A stretch of 64,000 nt of DNA from Bacteroidota bacterium (GTDB taxonomy: Bacteria; Bacteroidota; Bacteroidia; Sphingobacteriales; Sphingobacteriaceae), in NCBI GenBank assembly GCA_013288685.1, contig JABDBM010000003.1:28323-92322 (forward strand), read 5' to 3'. This document shows, piece after piece, positions 211 to 37,485 of the stretch. The notes beneath the pieces were generated by a model, which worked only from the letters and a program-made list of their open reading frames with translations, was not told where the DNA came from and did no database searches. The stretch's first letter is position 1. Each line of letters starts with the position of its first letter. The translations under genes and the position numbers were made by a program.

Positions 211-886
211 AGAGCCATCGGCTCGAACAATTTTGTAGCAACGGGTTTCAACCCGTTGTTGGTGATATGACAGATGTATGAGTGCCATAGGCACGAAACA
301 TATAATTAAATTAAATCCTGGAAAATATATTGTTCGTCATAATCTATTTCAAACTTTTTTAAAAGCCCCAGATATTCCTCCCTAAATGTTTGCTTTTGGT
401 GATGCAAACTCTGGTTCAGGACGTACTGATAAACTTTATCAACCTGCGATTGGCTGTAAGAAAATACACCATAACCTTCCTGCCATTCAAACCGCTTTGG
501 GGTTAATGAGTGATCGTTAATATATTTTGATGATTTTGCTTTCACAGTTTTCATTAGGTCAGAAACAGAAACAACCGGTTTTAGGCCCAAAAAGCAATGT
601 ACGTGATCTTCTACGCCATTTACAATAATGGTTTTGCAATTGGCATCGTTAATTAAATTGCCTATTACGCCGAAGAGTTGTGATTGCCAGTCTTTTTCAA
701 TTACGGCTTCGCGATATTTAACCGCGAAAATTGTTTGCAGGTAAATTTGGTGATAGGTGTTTGCCATTTTCTATATCATTAAAGTTTGCTATTTATATGG
801 GTCGAGCCTACGGCTCTTATTCCTTCTCTTTCCATTTTTCAACGGATTAAAATCCGTTGCTACAATATTTGTCGAGGCTACGCCTC
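211..886. mobile_element. IS200/IS605-like (REP-associated) element with tnpA and palindromic ends
   Basis: tnpA flanked by short palindromes gagccatcggctc, acgggtttcaacccgt, gtgccataggcac (left) and gagcctacggctc, acggattaaaatccgt, gaggctacgcctc (right); same palindrome order recurs at 37241-37485 without tnpA. Confidence 0.65.
306..767 (-). CDS. tnpA: IS200/IS605-like transposase (Y1_Tnp, REP-associated tyrosine transposase type)
   Basis: ORF 153 aa; HUH motif EDHVHCFLGL and C-terminal tyrosine region YGVFSYSQSQVDKVYQYVLNQSLHH. Confidence 0.88.
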   Translation of the reverse strand: MANTYHQIYLQTIFAVKYREAVIEKDWQSQLFGVIGNLINDANCKTIIVNGVEDHVHCFLGLKPVVSVSDLMKTVKAKSSKYINDHSLTPKRFEWQEGYGVFSYSQSQVDKVYQYVLNQSLHHQKQTFREEYLGLLKKFEIDYDEQYIFQDLI

Positions 887-25831: not shown

Positions 25832-25882
25832 GTTGACTCACCCCCGACCTTCGCTTTGCTCGGCCACCCCCTCTCTACGTTG
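25832..25882. repeat. Left half of a TTGACTCACCCC/CTCTCTAC palindromic element, interrupted by an IS1182-type element
   Basis: gttgactcacccccgaccttcgctttgctcggccaccccctctctacgttg; palindrome partner tagagaggggg at 27556-27566. Confidence 0.75.
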
Positions 25883-31521: not shown

Positions 31522-31713
31522 ATGATCACCGACCAATCTAAACCTGAATCAACTGACGTACCTCAGACCATTTTTCAGCAGTTTATTCAAGACCTGCGCA
31601 AAACCGAAACTCCGCCGTCAATTGTTAACGAATTGGAAAAGCTAATCGCCAGCGGAAATCCGATTACTGACATAATTCTAAGGGCTGCTTTAACGAAGAA
31701 TATTGAAATATGA
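31522..31713 (+). CDS. Small hypothetical protein (63 aa) translationally coupled to the SMC-like ATPase
   Basis: Stop overlaps the ATG at 31710 (ATGA). Confidence 0.65.
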   Translation: MITDQSKPESTDVPQTIFQQFIQDLRKTETPPSIVNELEKLIASGNPITDIILRAALTKNIEI

Positions 31714-34163
31714 TCACCGTTAAGAAATTGGAGGTGTTTGAGTTTCGAGGTATTCGGCATCTTGAACTTGATTTCAAAGGAAAGAACTTTGCGATTTGCG
31801 GTAAAAATGGGACTGGTAAAAGTGGAATCGTCGATGCGCTCGAATTCGGGTTGACTGGTAACATATCCCGGCTTTCAGGTAGCGGCACTGGCGGTATCTC
31901 CATTAAAGATCACGCACCGCACGTTGACAGCCGCACAAGTCCAGCAAACGCCAAAGTCATATTAACAGTTTTTATCCCTTCGCTTAATAAAGAGGCGACC
32001 ATAGAACGTTCCGTCAGTGATATACAGAATCCTGTTATTAAACCCGCCTCGAAAGAAGTTATTGGAATGTTCGCGGAGGTTGCCAATCATTCGGAGTTCA
32101 CTTTATCCAGAAGACAGCTTATTAAATACGTAATTTCCACCCCTGGTGCAAGGGCTGAAGAAGTACAATCGTTGCTTAAACTGGATAAAGTCGAGACTTT
32201 GCGCCAACAGCTTCAAAGAATAGCAAATGCTCATAAAAAGGACGTAAATCCGCTCAAAACGCAGAAAGATGAGGCTGCGAAAAATCTCACTGTTGCATTA
32301 GGCGTAGCCGAGCTGAATCCGGAAAAGGTTTTGGCTGCTGTTAATGAAAAGCGTGATATTCTTGGACTACCCAAGATTATTGAATTGATGTCGACGACCA
32401 ACCTCAGTGACGGGATGACCGTAGTAACAGAGAAAGCCAGTACAATATCCAAGCCCCATGCGCTTTTTGAAATGGAGACACTGGATCAGGCACTGAAAGC
32501 ATACCATAAATTGAGCAAAGATGAGACGTTGTCCGCCTTTATCACGAAAATAGATGCATTAAGCAAAGATCCGGCATTATTGACAGGGTTAAGCCGGGAA
32601 GGGTTTTTACGAACGGCTATGACAATAGTCGACGATGACTTTTGTCCTGTCTGTGACAGTGAGCTGGGACTGGAGGAAATCAAAACAGTTATCCAAAATA
32701 AACTTAATATTTTCGAAGAGGTTTCCGAAAGACGGAAAGGTTTGGAAGCTGAATTAACCCCATACACCCAAAAGATAAGAGATCTGATAGCTGCGATCCA
32801 AGTAGTAAAGGATTATGGTAAGTCATTAAAGCCAGTGATTAACACTAAACAATTTGATGATCTTATAGTGGCGCTTCAAACCAGTATGTTCCGCCTCAAC
32901 TCATTTCTGCCAATATCGGAGTTGCTTGAGGCATTAAATGGCTATGGGGAATATCCCCGAAACATTGATCTTCTCGCAGCAGATTTGTTAAGAGGGATAC
33001 AGAGAATACCCGAGCCAACTCAGCAAGATGCGGCACGCACGTATCTTATTATCGCCCAGGAAAGAATGGTCCATTACAGGGAGACGGCGTCAAAACACCG
33101 ACAAGCTGAAGAACAGGCAAAGGTCAGTATTGGCGTATTCGAAACCTATGCTAAGGTGGCGACATCAACTTTGGAAGGCTTATATAAGGATGTAGAAAGT
33201 AATTTTGTAGAATTATATCGCTTCATCAACAATGATGATGAAGCGGAATTCACAGCGCAATTGACCCCGTCAATGGGCAAGCTCGGGTTTGATGTTGATT
33301 TTTACGGCCGGGGGTATTTTCCGCCCGGTGCGTATCATAGCGAAGGCCATCAGGATGGCATGGGGCTTTGCTTGTATCTAGCCCTGATGAAACATATATT
33401 AAGGGACAACTTTACTTTTTCCGTTTTGGACGACGTACTAATGTCAGTGGATAGCGGACATCGGCGGGAGGTTTGCAAATTGCTGAAAGAGAAATTTCCT
33501 AATACCCAGTTTATCATTACCACACATGACCAAGTTTGGCTGAAGCATATGGCTACAGCCGGTCTCATTCAAGGCAAATCCTCTATTTTGTTCCGTAAAT
33601 GGAGTGTCGATAGCGGTCCAAACCAGTGGAATGACCAAGACGTTTGGAGCGAAATTTGGGTCCACATAAAAATGAATGATGTGCGCAGCGCGGCTGCCTT
33701 GTTGCGCCACTATCTTGAATATTTGTCAGGCGAGATTTGCCACAATCTTCGCGCAAGGGTTGAATTCCGTGCAGACGCACAATATAGCTTGGGTGATCTA
33801 CTGCCTCAAGCAACCGCTCAATTTAGTAAGCTACTGAGTGACGCAGAGAAATCGGCCCGTTCCTGGGGAAAAACCGATGAGGCGGATCAGGTCGCAGCAA
33901 GGCTATCTAAATTCAGAAGCTTAGTAACACGATCAAATATTGAACAGTGGCAGATCAATCCAAGTGTGCATTATACCGAGTGGCCAAACTTGGAGGGTAC
34001 TGATTTTGTACCTGTTTATAATGCTTTTAAGGAACTCACCGAAGCGCTTTCATGCCCTGTCTTGGATTGTAGCTCATTATATTACTTAGTTTTGGAAAAA
34101 AACAGTCCATCTGTATTGCGTTGTTCATGCGGCACCACCAGTTTAAATCTTGTAAAGAAATGA
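31710..34163 (+). CDS. SMC/RecF-like AAA ATPase
   Basis: 817 aa; Walker A CGKNGTGKSGIVDAL, central CPVC hook-like motif, GxGLCLYLALMKHIL, Walker B FSVLDDVLMSVD, TTHD H-loop, C-terminal Cys-rich tail (CPVLDC...CSCG). Confidence 0.85.
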   Translation: MITVKKLEVFEFRGIRHLELDFKGKNFAICGKNGTGKSGIVDALEFGLTGNISRLSGSGTGGISIKDHAPHVDSRTSPANAKVILTVFIPSLNKEATIERSVSDIQNPVIKPASKEVIGMFAEVANHSEFTLSRRQLIKYVISTPGARAEEVQSLLKLDKVETLRQQLQRIANAHKKDVNPLKTQKDEAAKNLTVALGVAELNPEKVLAAVNEKRDILGLPKIIELMSTTNLSDGMTVVTEKASTISKPHALFEMETLDQALKAYHKLSKDETLSAFITKIDALSKDPALLTGLSREGFLRTAMTIVDDDFCPVCDSELGLEEIKTVIQNKLNIFEEVSERRKGLEAELTPYTQKIRDLIAAIQVVKDYGKSLKPVINTKQFDDLIVALQTSMFRLNSFLPISELLEALNGYGEYPRNIDLLAADLLRGIQRIPEPTQQDAARTYLIIAQERMVHYRETASKHRQAEEQAKVSIGVFETYAKVATSTLEGLYKDVESNFVELYRFINNDDEAEFTAQLTPSMGKLGFDVDFYGRGYFPPGAYHSEGHQDGMGLCLYLALMKHILRDNFTFSVLDDVLMSVDSGHRREVCKLLKEKFPNTQFIITTHDQVWLKHMATAGLIQGKSSILFRKWSVDSGPNQWNDQDVWSEIWVHIKMNDVRSAAALLRHYLEYLSGEICHNLRARVEFRADAQYSLGDLLPQATAQFSKLLSDAEKSARSWGKTDEADQVAARLSKFRSLVTRSNIEQWQINPSVHYTEWPNLEGTDFVPVYNAFKELTEALSCPVLDCSSLYYLVLEKNSPSVLRCSCGTTSLNLVKK

Positions 34164-34343: not shown

Positions 34344-36068
34344 TTATACCCCGCCATTATCCGCTTCGGCTTCTGATAGATGGTTTGGTTGCCAAATGCT
34401 ATTACTACCTTCCACCGGAATGGAGTTTGCGCGGGGGATTGTCCTTTCTAAATGCTCCGTTATAACCGGCGAAAGCAGTATCTCGATTATTGACGTTTTG
34501 TAGTCCGCATCAGGGTTGGGATTTAGGTGGGTCATTGTTGTTTGTACATCCCGCATCAGCACCTGCGGCAGCAATATATAGGGTGTTACCGTCGTCCTGC
34601 TCGCTGCGGCGAAGCAATTTGCGCCGGGCGTTGTGCTTTGTATATCATCGGTTGGGGTATGCACGGCGATGGTATAGTTAGTTAACCCATTTTGGTCATT
34701 GGTCATTGGGTCATCCGCATATCCTTTTTGGTCATTGGTCATTGGGTCATCCGCATATCCTTTTTGGTCATTGGTCATTGGGTCATCCGCGTAATCTTCA
34801 AATTGGCTAATTTTAAAATCTTCAAATTTGTCCTCATCTGCACATCCACGCATCTGCACATCTGCCCATCCTCCCTCATTTTCAAATTGACTAATTTTCA
34901 AATCTTCAAATCCCTCCTCATCTGCACATCCTCGCATCTGCACATCTGCACATTCGATAAGCCGGTTAACGGTACCCAAGCCTATTCCCAGCTGTTTACT
35001 GATTTCGCGCTGGCTGAGGCCTCCGGCGGTGAGGGCGGCTACTTTTTTGGCGAGTTGCTGCCGGGCGGCGGCGGTGCGGGTTTGGAGGTGATGATGTTCG
35101 GCGCTGTAGCCCTCGAACTTGAAATGTAAAAATGTGCCGGGCTTTTGGATGCGGCACAGGCATACGTTGTCGTCGCCGTAGCGCTGGCGGGTGTTGCGCT
35201 GTTTGATTTGTTTGAGGTAACACAGATGATTGCCGGTGGTGCTTTTGCCGATGGCGAAGGCGCTGTCGGCAAAGTTGATGAGCAGCTTGCTGCCGTGCAG
35301 GTCGTCGGCGCTGATGGGTTGTGTGGGGTTGCGTCGTTTTGGGGTGTGCGCCAGCACCAGGATTGACAGCTTGTGGTCGGTTTTTAGCGTTTTGAGGCTT
35401 TTCATCAGCGAAAGCGCCACCACCGAATTTTCGGTGCCGCCGCGCAGGCAGGTAATGTTATCAATAATAAGCACGGTGGCCTTAGTCATCCGTACTTTAT
35501 ACTCAATGGCCGCAATGAGCAGTGCATTTTCGTCGACATTGGGCGGCGGGTCGGGTATGAAATTGTATTCGGCACGGTAAAAATTATCGGAGAATATATG
35601 GTCATCGTCGCCATTGCTGTACCGTAGTCCGAATTGTGCCCGGGTAAGTTCGAAATCGATATAGAGCACACGGGCGGGCGGCGCCTGGCAGGGAAACGGT
35701 GCAATGCTGCGCCCGCGTGCAATGCTTTCGCCAATCTGTACGGCCAGCACCGACTTGCCGATATTGCTGTCGGCAAACAGCATGCACAGTTCGCCCTGGT
35801 GCCATAGTTCGCCAAACAGCATTTTGGCTTTGGGTTCGCGCCGGGCCAGCTCCATCCAGCGGCTGCCTTTTTCAACCGTAAACAGGCGGTGACTGTCTTC
35901 GGGACTGGGCATTTCCGGTTCGGGGCGTTTTTTTCTTTTAGCCGGACGGTATGGCAGTCCGCGGGTTTCGGCGCGGAGCTGATCGATGTAGGAAGGGCGT
36001 TCAGTGGGTGATGGGGTGGTGGGCATGGTAATGTGTTTGTTTGTTACAGGCATGGCGGGTTGACTCAC
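34344..36068 (-). CDS. RecA-like (AAA_25/RepA-type) ATPase with HTH and a repetitive C-terminus
   Basis: 574 aa; Walker A FADSNIGKSVLAVQI, ARVLYIDFELT, VLIIDNITCLR, LSQREISKQLGIGLGTVNRLI HTH; then tandem YADDPMTNDQKG. Confidence 0.8.
   Translation of the reverse strand: MSQPAMPVTNKHITMPTTPSPTERPSYIDQLRAETRGLPYRPAKRKKRPEPEMPSPEDSHRLFTVEKGSRWMELARREPKAKMLFGELWHQGELCMLFADSNIGKSVLAVQIGESIARGRSIAPFPCQAPPARVLYIDFELTRAQFGLRYSNGDDDHIFSDNFYRAEYNFIPDPPPNVDENALLIAAIEYKVRMTKATVLIIDNITCLRGGTENSVVALSLMKSLKTLKTDHKLSILVLAHTPKRRNPTQPISADDLHGSKLLINFADSAFAIGKSTTGNHLCYLKQIKQRNTRQRYGDDNVCLCRIQKPGTFLHFKFEGYSAEHHHLQTRTAAARQQLAKKVAALTAGGLSQREISKQLGIGLGTVNRLIECADVQMRGCADEEGFEDLKISQFENEGGWADVQMRGCADEDKFEDFKISQFEDYADDPMTNDQKGYADDPMTNDQKGYADDPMTNDQNGLTNYTIAVHTPTDDIQSTTPGANCFAAASRTTVTPYILLPQVLMRDVQTTMTHLNPNPDADYKTSIIEILLSPVITEHLERTIPRANSIPVEGSNSIWQPNHLSEAEADNGGV
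34690..34797. repeat. 36-bp tandem repeat x3 in coding frame (YADDPMTNDQKG)
   Basis: ttttggtcattggtcattgggtcatccgcatatcc, period 36. Confidence 0.9.
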
Positions 36069-36190
36069 CCCCTGTCATCGCTTCGCTCGACATCCCCCTC
36101 TCTACTGCGTAGAGAGGGGGAAAGACCAGGGGGGCCCCATCTTTGCGCAGCAGAGAGGGGTGCCGGCGAAGCACGGCGGGGTGAGTCAAC
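36059..36190. repeat. IR-bounded palindromic element, unit A
   Basis: gttgactcacccc...ggggtgagtcaac termini; internal ccccctctctactgcgtagagaggggg. Confidence 0.9.
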
Positions 36191-36218
36191 TGGGCCGCGT
36201 GCTTAGACTGCAGGCATT

Positions 36219-36357
36219 GTTGACCCACCCCCGACCTTCGCTGCGCTTGGCCACCCCTCTCTACCATGTAGAGAGGGGGAAATAAGGAACAAATGTAGCT
36301 TCCCCCTCTTTGCGCAGCAGAGAGGGGTGCCGGCGAAGCACGGCGGGGTGAGTTAAC
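36219..36357. repeat. IR-bounded palindromic element, unit B
   Basis: gttgacccaccccc...ggggtgagttaac; same interior as unit C. Confidence 0.9.
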
Positions 36358-36385
36358 TGGGCCGCGTGCTTAGGCTGCAGGCATT

Positions 36386-36525
36386 GTTGACTCACCCCCG
36401 ACCTTCGCTGCGCTTGGCCACCCGCTCTCTACGATGTAGAGAGGGGGAAATAAGGAACAAATGTAGCTTCCCCCTCTTTGCGCAGCAGAGAGGGGTGCCG
36501 GCGAAGCACGGCGGGGTGAGTCAAC
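36386..36525. repeat. IR-bounded palindromic element, unit C
   Basis: gttgactcaccccc...ggggtgagtcaac; 167-bp period with unit B. Confidence 0.9.
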
Positions 36526-36608
36526 TGGGCCGCGTGCTTAGAGCGCTACTGAAACGATATTTTTTTGAACACGGATTGTTGCAGCGCATATTTTTTCTAT
36601 TTTTAAGG

Positions 36609-36971
36609 ATGCCATCGATAATCGAATTTTGCCGTGAATTACGTCAGCGCGAAACGCCTGCGGAAAAATTATTATGGCAACACCTTCGCAATCGAAAGTT
36701 TTATGGTCGGAAATTCCTGCGGCAACACCCTATTTGGGTTGAGAATACGTTCGGCAAATATTTGTATTACATCCCTGATTTTTATTGCCACGAAGCGAAA
36801 TTGGTGATAGAAGCTGATGGGCCGATTCACTTGCTGAAAAAGGACTATGACAAAAATCGGGACGCGGTACTGAACGCACTGGGATTAACTATAGTTAGAT
36901 TCGACAACGATGAAATTCTTAATGATTTGCAGATGGTTCTGGATAAGATAAAGAACCTTCTGGAAAGCTGA
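36609..36971 (+). CDS. DUF559 (Vsr-like fold) endonuclease-domain protein
   Basis: 120 aa; RELRQRETPAEKLLWQHLRNRKFYGRKFLRQHPIW...YIPDFYCHEAKLVIEADGPIH, typical DUF559; ATG at 36609 chosen because the longer ORF reads through repeat unit C. Confidence 0.88.
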   Translation: MPSIIEFCRELRQRETPAEKLLWQHLRNRKFYGRKFLRQHPIWVENTFGKYLYYIPDFYCHEAKLVIEADGPIHLLKKDYDKNRDAVLNALGLTIVRFDNDEILNDLQMVLDKIKNLLES

Positions 36972-36984
36972 CTTCGCCCCGATA

Positions 36985-37137
36985 GTTGACTCACCCCCTG
37001 TCGTCGCTTCGCTCGACATCCCCCTCTCTACTGCGTAGAGAGGGGGAAAAATGCAGGGTGGAATGCAGCTTCCCCCTCTTTGCGCAGCAGAGAGGGGTGC
37101 CGGCGAAGCCCGGCGGGGTGAGTTAACTACGCTGGGC
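36985..37137. repeat. IR-bounded palindromic element, unit D
   Basis: gttgactcacccc...ggggtgagttaac, immediately after the DUF559 stop codon. Confidence 0.9.
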
Positions 37138-37240: not shown

Positions 37241-37485
37241 AGGGCCATCGGCCCGAACGATGTTATTTCCACGGGTTAAAACCCGTGGAAATTGACAAAC
37301 AAACACAAGAGTGCCATCGGCACGACCCATGTTTTTGCCTAAATCCAGGTATCGTCAATTCATTCGAACAATGTATATCACGCTTTGATGATATGGGCCG
37401 AACCTACGGTTCTCCATCTGTTTTTCCATGGCTGATTTCCACGGGTTAAAATCCGCGGCTACAAGATTGATCGAGGCTACGCCTC
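37241..37485. mobile_element. Non-autonomous derivative of the IS200/IS605-like element at 211-886 (no tnpA)
   Basis: Same ordered palindromes: gggccatcggccc, acgggttaaaacccgt, gtgccatcggcac ... gaacctacggttc, acgggttaaaatccg, gaggctacgcctc. Confidence 0.65.

Follow-up and report, generated by a model that had tools for sequence, protein, structure and literature searches.

Results

A nuclease gene among palindromic units

The locus studied here raises the question of whether a small nuclease gene and the palindromes around it belong to one element. The locus lies in a 64,000-nucleotide stretch of contig JABDBM010000003.1 (hereafter the window), from a Mucilaginibacter-like metagenome-assembled genome that is 71% complete. 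In the window, a gene of the DUF559 family is surrounded by four similar palindromic units. This pairing recurs in many phyla, Escherichia coli included, often with gene and repeats together inside an essential gene, and suggests a kind of selfish mobile element that has not been described before. Judging from the sequences, the DUF559 gene probably forms one selfish mobile unit with the palindromic modules on either side of it, and the gene-less units would be derivatives of this unit.

All four units (A to D; Table 1) fold as a single long hairpin, with energies of −79 to −101 kcal/mol under RNA parameters. Each consists of two ~65-bp modules in head-to-head orientation, and in each module the outer CTCACCCC strand is followed by a mini-hairpin and then by the CCCCTCTCTAC/GTAGAGAGGGG hairpin. 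This inner stem is present in all four units, as stated in a preliminary description of the locus, which had also placed units A, B, and C exactly; unit D, however, ends at 37127 and not at 37137. The perfect 13-bp inverted repeat given there, with 1-nt variants allowed, is found in A and C; the arms of B each have one variant base (GTTGACCCACCCC and GGGGTGAGTTAAC), and those of D have one mismatch. Units A, B, and C form a tandem series with a near-identical 28-nt spacer between units, and the repeated spacer indicates that the series arose by tandem duplication.

The sequence GTTGACTCACCCC, with up to two mismatches allowed, occurs nine times in the window against 0.74 expected, and none of 100 shuffles reached nine. 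The ninth occurrence is part of a lone half-module, which is a broken copy. The DUF559 gene sits between units C and D, with 13 nt between its stop codon and unit D, just as described beforehand, and its product matches Pfam PF04480 with an E-value of 3.4e-32. An Rfam scan of the window gave no match to a known RNA family, including any intron family.

DUF559 genes and hairpins occur together across phyla

A scan of contigs in the Genome Taxonomy Database (GTDB) gave 62 loci with DUF559 relatives, 61 of which were testable for hairpins. The loci belong to Bacteroidota, Cyanobacteriota, Chloroflexota, Verrucomicrobiota, Spirochaetota, Armatimonadota, Cloacimonadota, Bacillota, and Pseudomonadota. 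At most of them, polypyrimidine/polypurine hairpins of the CCCTCTCC..GGAGAGGG type adjoin DUF559. The hairpin density over the 61 loci is 3.2/kb within 150 bp of the gene and ~0.03/kb past 1 kb (58 hairpins within 150 bp, compared with 11 in total at 1–4 kb). A hairpin is found within 300 bp at 36 of the 61 loci and on both sides at 14, while the values for random positions in the same loci are 1.5 and 0. These figures understate the association, since nearly all Mucilaginibacter loci have interrupted stems and score zero. Such loci were missed by a search for perfect stems of at least 8 bp and were recovered with the module pattern.

In an independent sample of 20 stand-alone DUF559 genes from other Bacteroidota, taken mostly from genomes with few or no CCCTCTC-type hairpins, pyrimidine/purine (Y/R) hairpins lie within 400 bp of all 20 genes and on both sides of 15, and the hairpin sequences differ lineage by lineage. 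In a control within one set of 60 genomes, a hairpin is near only 1 of 30 GIY-YIG genes and on both sides of none, compared with 21 and 16 of 30 DUF559 genes.

Genome-wide statistics were obtained for Bacteroidota, and other phyla are covered by the loci above and 14 single genomes. DUF559 is present in 138 of the 248 Bacteroidota genomes sampled. Hairpins occur in 58 of the 102 genomes in which DUF559 matches strongly (E up to 1e-15) and in 20 of the 146 that lack such a match (odds ratio 8.3, p = 7e-13); stratified by family, the co-occurrence remains (p = 5e-5), and a reversed-pattern control is almost empty. Single genomes outside Bacteroidota contain up to 340 hairpins, with 0–1 control hits. 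The expectation of the preliminary description that DUF559 genes lie next to or inside palindromes above chance across genomes is thus strongly borne out by the 61 loci, the 248 genomes, and the GIY-YIG control. Of the two contrary outcomes it had named, neither a lack of association nor a wide occurrence of DUF559 without palindromes was observed.

The same genomes bear on whether another enzyme, either a RAYT (repetitive extragenic palindrome (REP)-associated tyrosine transposase) or IS200-type Y1 transposase or an insertion sequence acting in trans, moves the palindromes with DUF559 as passenger cargo. Y1 genes are common in them (176 of 248), and a hairpin with a guide-like tail recalls the ends of IS200/IS605 and REP elements. 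The Y1–hairpin link is weak, however, and is lost when DUF559 is held constant (p = 0.61 in DUF559-negative genomes, and 0.07), whereas the hairpin–DUF559 link persists in genomes with and without Y1. Nine genomes with at least four hairpins lack any Y1 match, and DUF559 is present in six of these; the supposed cargo is always the same nuclease family. Passenger status is therefore very improbable, and RAYT/Y1 as mobilizer was rejected by the stratified co-occurrence. The earlier view of a system without transposase agrees with this, since the DUF559 protein is an EDxHD/Vsr-type PD-(D/E)XK nuclease and not an HUH enzyme.

The two ends match and gene-less copies are dispersed

The left and right arms within a locus are more similar to each other (0.67) than arms of different loci (0.43; p = 1e-4). 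Arm similarity also tracks protein similarity (Mantel r = 0.28, p = 4e-4), a correlation to which host lineage may add. An element end is composed of a polypyrimidine/polypurine hairpin and an outer CTCACCCC/GGGGTGAG strand. The full element, ~0.45–0.6 kb long, runs in the order CCTCACCCC, hairpin, DUF559, hairpin, and GGGGTGAGG, and its ends are inverted copies.

The source genome has a single stand-alone DUF559 gene; units or half-units occur at ~25 places in it. Among the loci of the window clade, modules are found at the DUF559 gene in 17 of 17, against a background of 5 modules in 92 kb. The gene lies within one unit at 7 of the 17 and between two complete units at 3, the window counted. 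The arrangement proposed at the outset, a nuclease embedded between palindromic elements, is accordingly that of the window, while in the closest relatives the gene is usually inside one unit, between its arms. In congeners, the DUF559 gene is flanked by one + and one − module over 0.57 kb end to end (G031 contig 28, 26218–26789; G017 contig 10, 815326–815895). Gene-less units there have + and − modules ~130 bp end to end and ~100 bp apart. Gene-less copies are more numerous than copies of the gene, and a gene-less unit is best read as the element minus its gene.

Two further arrangements should be noted. In Dyadobacter (loci L097 and L105) and on Picosynechococcus plasmid pAQ6 (L124), the repeat on the flanks of DUF559 is another common one, CCCCTAAATCCCC..GGGGACTT, which suggests that this repeat family is also tied to DUF559. 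On pSymB of Sinorhizobium meliloti (L127, 2468–2872), the DUF559 gene lies between triplex-motif units and adjoins an IS4-like element.

The end module is a published triplex motif

The general end module, a hairpin plus a second GGGGTGAGG run, is the published intrastrand triplex motif known as TM_ECO, PIT element, or box C (Holder et al. 2015, PMC4666352). This motif (TM) has the form CCCTCNCCC-N3-6-GGGNGAGGG-N3-GGGNGAGGG, is dispersed in more than 260 genomes, and occurs as inverted pairs of one type A and one type B copy; TM loci of Escherichia coli are unusually variable (PMC4666352). No mobility gene was found near TM sites in that study, and no mobilizer was proposed (PMC4666352).

A Y-run/R-run hairpin with a second GGGNGAGGG run is present at the DUF559 loci of S. 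meliloti, Klebsiella pneumoniae, Chloroflexi, and cyanobacteria, and at ycjD of E. coli. In the window clade, the mini-hairpin parts the two runs of the triplex module. The ycjD gene of E. coli K-12 (1351407–1351760) is a DUF559 gene, and TM no. 9 of strain MG1655 (1351204–1351239) lies 168 bp from it, beyond its stop codon. A second, decayed hairpin overlaps the stop codon, giving YcjD the C-terminus RRSPSP. The gene is found in 3366 of 5426 E. coli genomes. In Klebsiella, a broken DUF559 relative between cysP and a Dyp-type peroxidase gene abuts the TM motif, and a gonococcal DUF559 locus has the motif on both sides. As a separate observation, Azospirillum megaplasmids (plasmid records H1 and H2) contain the 36-nt motif of E. 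coli without a single difference (100% identity).

Some elements are inserted in frame in host genes

At 12 of the 62 unselected loci, and at more among loci chosen for long reading frames, the element lies in frame in a host gene, with no stop codon across either palindromic arm. The hosts are leuS (two sites), metH (two sites), recG, hsdR, hsdM, miaA, and genes for Eco57I-type and ISP methyltransferases, UvrD-like helicases, methylmalonyl-CoA mutase, and an HrpA-like helicase. At one leuS site, a 483-bp element, CCTCACCCC...GGGGTGAGG, stands in place of a variable loop, in one genome directly after GKSVGAMVSFAVK. The leuS gene is contiguous in more than 100 of 200 congeners, so that one and the same site is seen both filled and empty in a single genus. 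Empty orthologous sites, which the preliminary description had proposed to look for, thus exist for leuS. For plasmids (pAQ6 and relatives), no clean empty allele was obtained. On a Synechocystis sp. B12 plasmid (L125, 2390–2836), a pglX-type methyltransferase gene in a BREX-like locus contains a DUF559 element, which apparently breaks it.

The main rival to a mobile unit of gene and palindromes is a free-standing homing endonuclease. According to this explanation, the palindromes are an independent family resembling miniature inverted-repeat transposable elements (MITEs) or REPs that serve as landing sites, and DUF559 homes into their loops and moves nothing. The gene in the loop of one unit at 7 of 17 window-clade loci would be expected from it, an intron-encoded homing endonuclease is among the relatives of the protein, and in the protein tree, copies in the same host gene (metH, recG, mutase, hsdR) tend to cluster, which fits homing lineages or vertical descent. 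On the other hand, the left and right arms of a locus match, arm sequences change along with the protein in phyla with very different hairpins, hairpins are mostly missing where DUF559 is missing, and the empty leuS sites of congeners have no gene-less palindrome at that position. We consider homing into pre-existing palindromes unlikely on these grounds.

In-frame copies could instead be domesticated, that is, expressed domain insertions that benefit the host protein, which would be a later fate of the same element and not a matter of selfishness. Reading frames are unbroken through both arms and DUF559 in leuS, metH, recG, hsdR, and others, and some sites are common to related genomes. Their occurrence is sporadic within a genus, however, as the contiguous leuS genes show, and the palindromic ends are near-intact, as in young insertions; domestication seems quite improbable as the explanation.

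The DUF559 protein has a conserved nuclease active site

Across 41 sequences from many phyla, in-frame copies included, the residues E18, W22, Q38, D56, E67xD69, H73, and D80 (numbered without the initial Met) are invariant. The structure of the window protein was predicted confidently (pLDDT 89). The closest solved structures are NGO0050 of Neisseria gonorrhoeae (3hrl, DUF559), followed by the catalytic domain of I-Bth0305I (3r3p; profile match E = 9e-5); Foldseek template-modeling scores reach 0.72. DUF559 was previously assigned, in passing, to the EDxHD homing family (PMC9403480), and VsrA of Caulobacter, a DUF559 protein, causes DNA damage in vivo once cells have lost the solitary methyltransferase ScmA (PMC12907096). 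The conserved active site, the EDxHD homing relatives, and the damage by VsrA make it likely that the DUF559 protein is an active nuclease.

These features also raise the alternative of a host function, with DUF559 as a Vsr-like mismatch-repair or defense nuclease and the hairpins, which would catch the gene, as ordinary terminators or intergenic palindromes prone to recombination. Besides the behavior of VsrA, several copies in restriction-modification genes and the variability of E. coli TM loci are in line with this. The hairpins, however, are found on both sides and in frame within coding sequences, and not downstream alone; no such accumulation is seen at the GIY-YIG genes of these genomes, and some genomes contain hundreds of gene-less copies. 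PADLOC gave no match for the window protein or YcjD, and a catalogued defense protein was rejected for this reason. A host function of this kind is highly improbable. The gene was also considered as mainly a phage homing gene, which was rejected because relatives are present in only 2 of 50,697 phage records.

Other features of the window

Table 1. Palindromic units, DUF559 gene, and related features of the window
Feature	Position	Strand	Remarks
Palindromic unit A, 132 nt	36059..36190		Two head-to-head modules; perfect 13-bp terminal inverted repeat
28-nt spacer TGGGCCGCGTGCTTAGACTGCAGGCATT	36191..36218	+	Recurs at 36358-36385 and partly after unit C
Palindromic unit B, 139 nt	36219..36357		Single variant base per terminal arm
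28-nt spacer, copy 2	36358..36385	+	1 mismatch
Palindromic unit C, 140 nt	36386..36525		Perfect 13-bp terminal inverted repeat
DUF559 (PF04480) EDxHD/Vsr-like nuclease gene	36609..36971	+	ATG start, 120 aa
Palindromic unit D, 143 nt	36985..37127		Terminal arms differ by one mismatch
Lone left half-module	25832..25879	+	GTTGACTCACCCC, mini-hairpin, CCCCTCTCTAC; no partner arm

An SMC/AAA_23 ATPase gene located a short way upstream of the palindromes (31710–34163, + strand) has LmuB (Lamassu-type) as its best PADLOC match (E = 3e-23) and could be part of a defense locus. An AAA_25 ATPase gene (34344–36068, − strand) carries in-frame tandem repeats (GYADDPMTNDQK) within its coding sequence, and its first listed start codon (36068) is inside unit A. 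A second short palindromic repeat family, unrelated and REP-like (ATTTCCACGGGTTAAAACCCGTGG, AGGGCCATCGGCCCGAACGATG), occupies 37241–37460. A Y1 (RAYT-type) transposase gene is located at the start of the window (411–755, − strand; G000:C3:28733–29077), and both repeat systems therefore share one genome.

Discussion

The notion that the palindromes are cut or processed by the nuclease and owe their spread to it, in the way that REPs depend on RAYT, fits the observations. In the most likely mechanism, the EDxHD nuclease would cut or nick DNA at a target site, at its own extruded ends, or at both, and host break repair would then insert a copy of the whole element, or of the form without the gene, at the break. 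Surviving insertions would be those in intergenic positions or in frame in loops of essential proteins. The 130–145-bp units would be two ends minus the gene, that is, non-autonomous derivatives like MITEs or REPINs (hairpins of paired REPs), which are more numerous than the gene and remain where it has been lost. In its widest form, the proposal is that DUF559 nucleases make up a cross-phylum class of triplex-hairpin-bounded selfish DNA that lacks transposase, recombinase, intron, and intein, copies itself and gene-less palindromes to many sites, runs in frame across essential genes, and gave rise to the PIT/TM/box C repeats found in E. coli and more than 260 other bacteria. We regard this wide form as having about an even chance of being correct.

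Several points weigh against a mobile unit made of gene and palindromes. Forty-four of the 102 DUF559-strong Bacteroidota genomes have no CCCTCTC-type hairpin, though many of them, as far as sampled, have other Y/R types. Some DUF559 domains are located within larger proteins without hairpins; these also serve as an internal negative control. Conversely, three genomes (G060, G142, and G181) have 13–32 hairpin modules each and no detectable DUF559. Several inspected places in them are true CTCACCCC-hairpin modules, and such hairpin-rich genomes look like carriers of orphan copies, or another driver is at work. The triplex-type hairpins in these genomes (L229–L243) are partly in tandem arrays. 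The Mantel correlation, as mentioned, may be due in part to host lineage. No target-site duplication or target consensus is readable, the exact join in leuS being blurred because the element replaces a variable native loop. A PD-(D/E)XK hydrolase alone cannot join DNA, and the copying step therefore needs host functions. The association, the matching ends, their co-variation with the protein, the dispersed gene-less copies, the filled and empty sites, and the conserved active site can be read from the sequences. Cleavage, excision, and transposition were not observed, and cutting by the nuclease and the way in which the element spreads are our inference.

Few dispersed repeats are as widespread in bacteria as the triplex-forming GC-rich palindromes, for which no mobilizer has been named. 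The DUF559 element is a likely origin of these palindromes, and the link to one nuclease family that includes ycjD of E. coli K-12 makes the question testable in a laboratory strain. If the proposal is true, it adds a transposase-free class of mobile element, explains the "in-frame DUF559" forms of leuS, metH, recG, and hsd genes, and gives a function to a domain of unknown function present in over half of the Bacteroidota genomes sampled.

The nuclease fold, the triplex repeat, and the in-frame palindrome are each known already, and their pairing is new within the literature searched; the DUF559–palindrome pairing was not found in this search, which was partial and did not include most subscription papers or bioRxiv. 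The TM/PIT elements share the module, the paired inverted copies, and the dispersed distribution, but here the module forms the end of a unit that carries a nuclease gene, whereas Holder et al. named no mobilizer. REP/REPIN–RAYT systems likewise have dispersed short palindromes that mostly form inverted pairs, as well as orphan copies, and a genome has only one or a few enzyme genes; their enzyme gene is also flanked by inverted copies of a hairpin with a short guide-like tail. However, RAYT is an HUH Y1 transposase, while the flanked gene here encodes a PF04480 PD-(D/E)XK/EDxHD nuclease, and the DUF559 element also inserts in frame in essential genes. A MITE of a DDE insertion sequence shares its terminal inverted repeats with a transposase gene and has a target-site duplication; here the terminal inverted repeats are shared with a nuclease gene, and the leuS alignment gave no readable duplication. 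Rickettsia palindromic elements (reviewed in PMC10969869) also lie in frame in open reading frames; they are ~150 bp long and encode no enzyme. Vsr and Caulobacter VsrA belong to the same superfamily, but the role proposed for VsrA is mismatch repair (PMC12907096). With the EDxHD homing endonuclease I-Bth0305I (PDB 3r3p), the DUF559 element shares the catalytic fold, the E-D-x-H-D residues, and insertion in conserved genes, but it has no intron, intein, or separate DNA-binding region, and it has many gene-less palindromic copies at unrelated sites. The element differs from RAYT systems in its enzyme and from homing genes in its dispersed gene-less copies; we rate the class as new and its mechanism as unproven.

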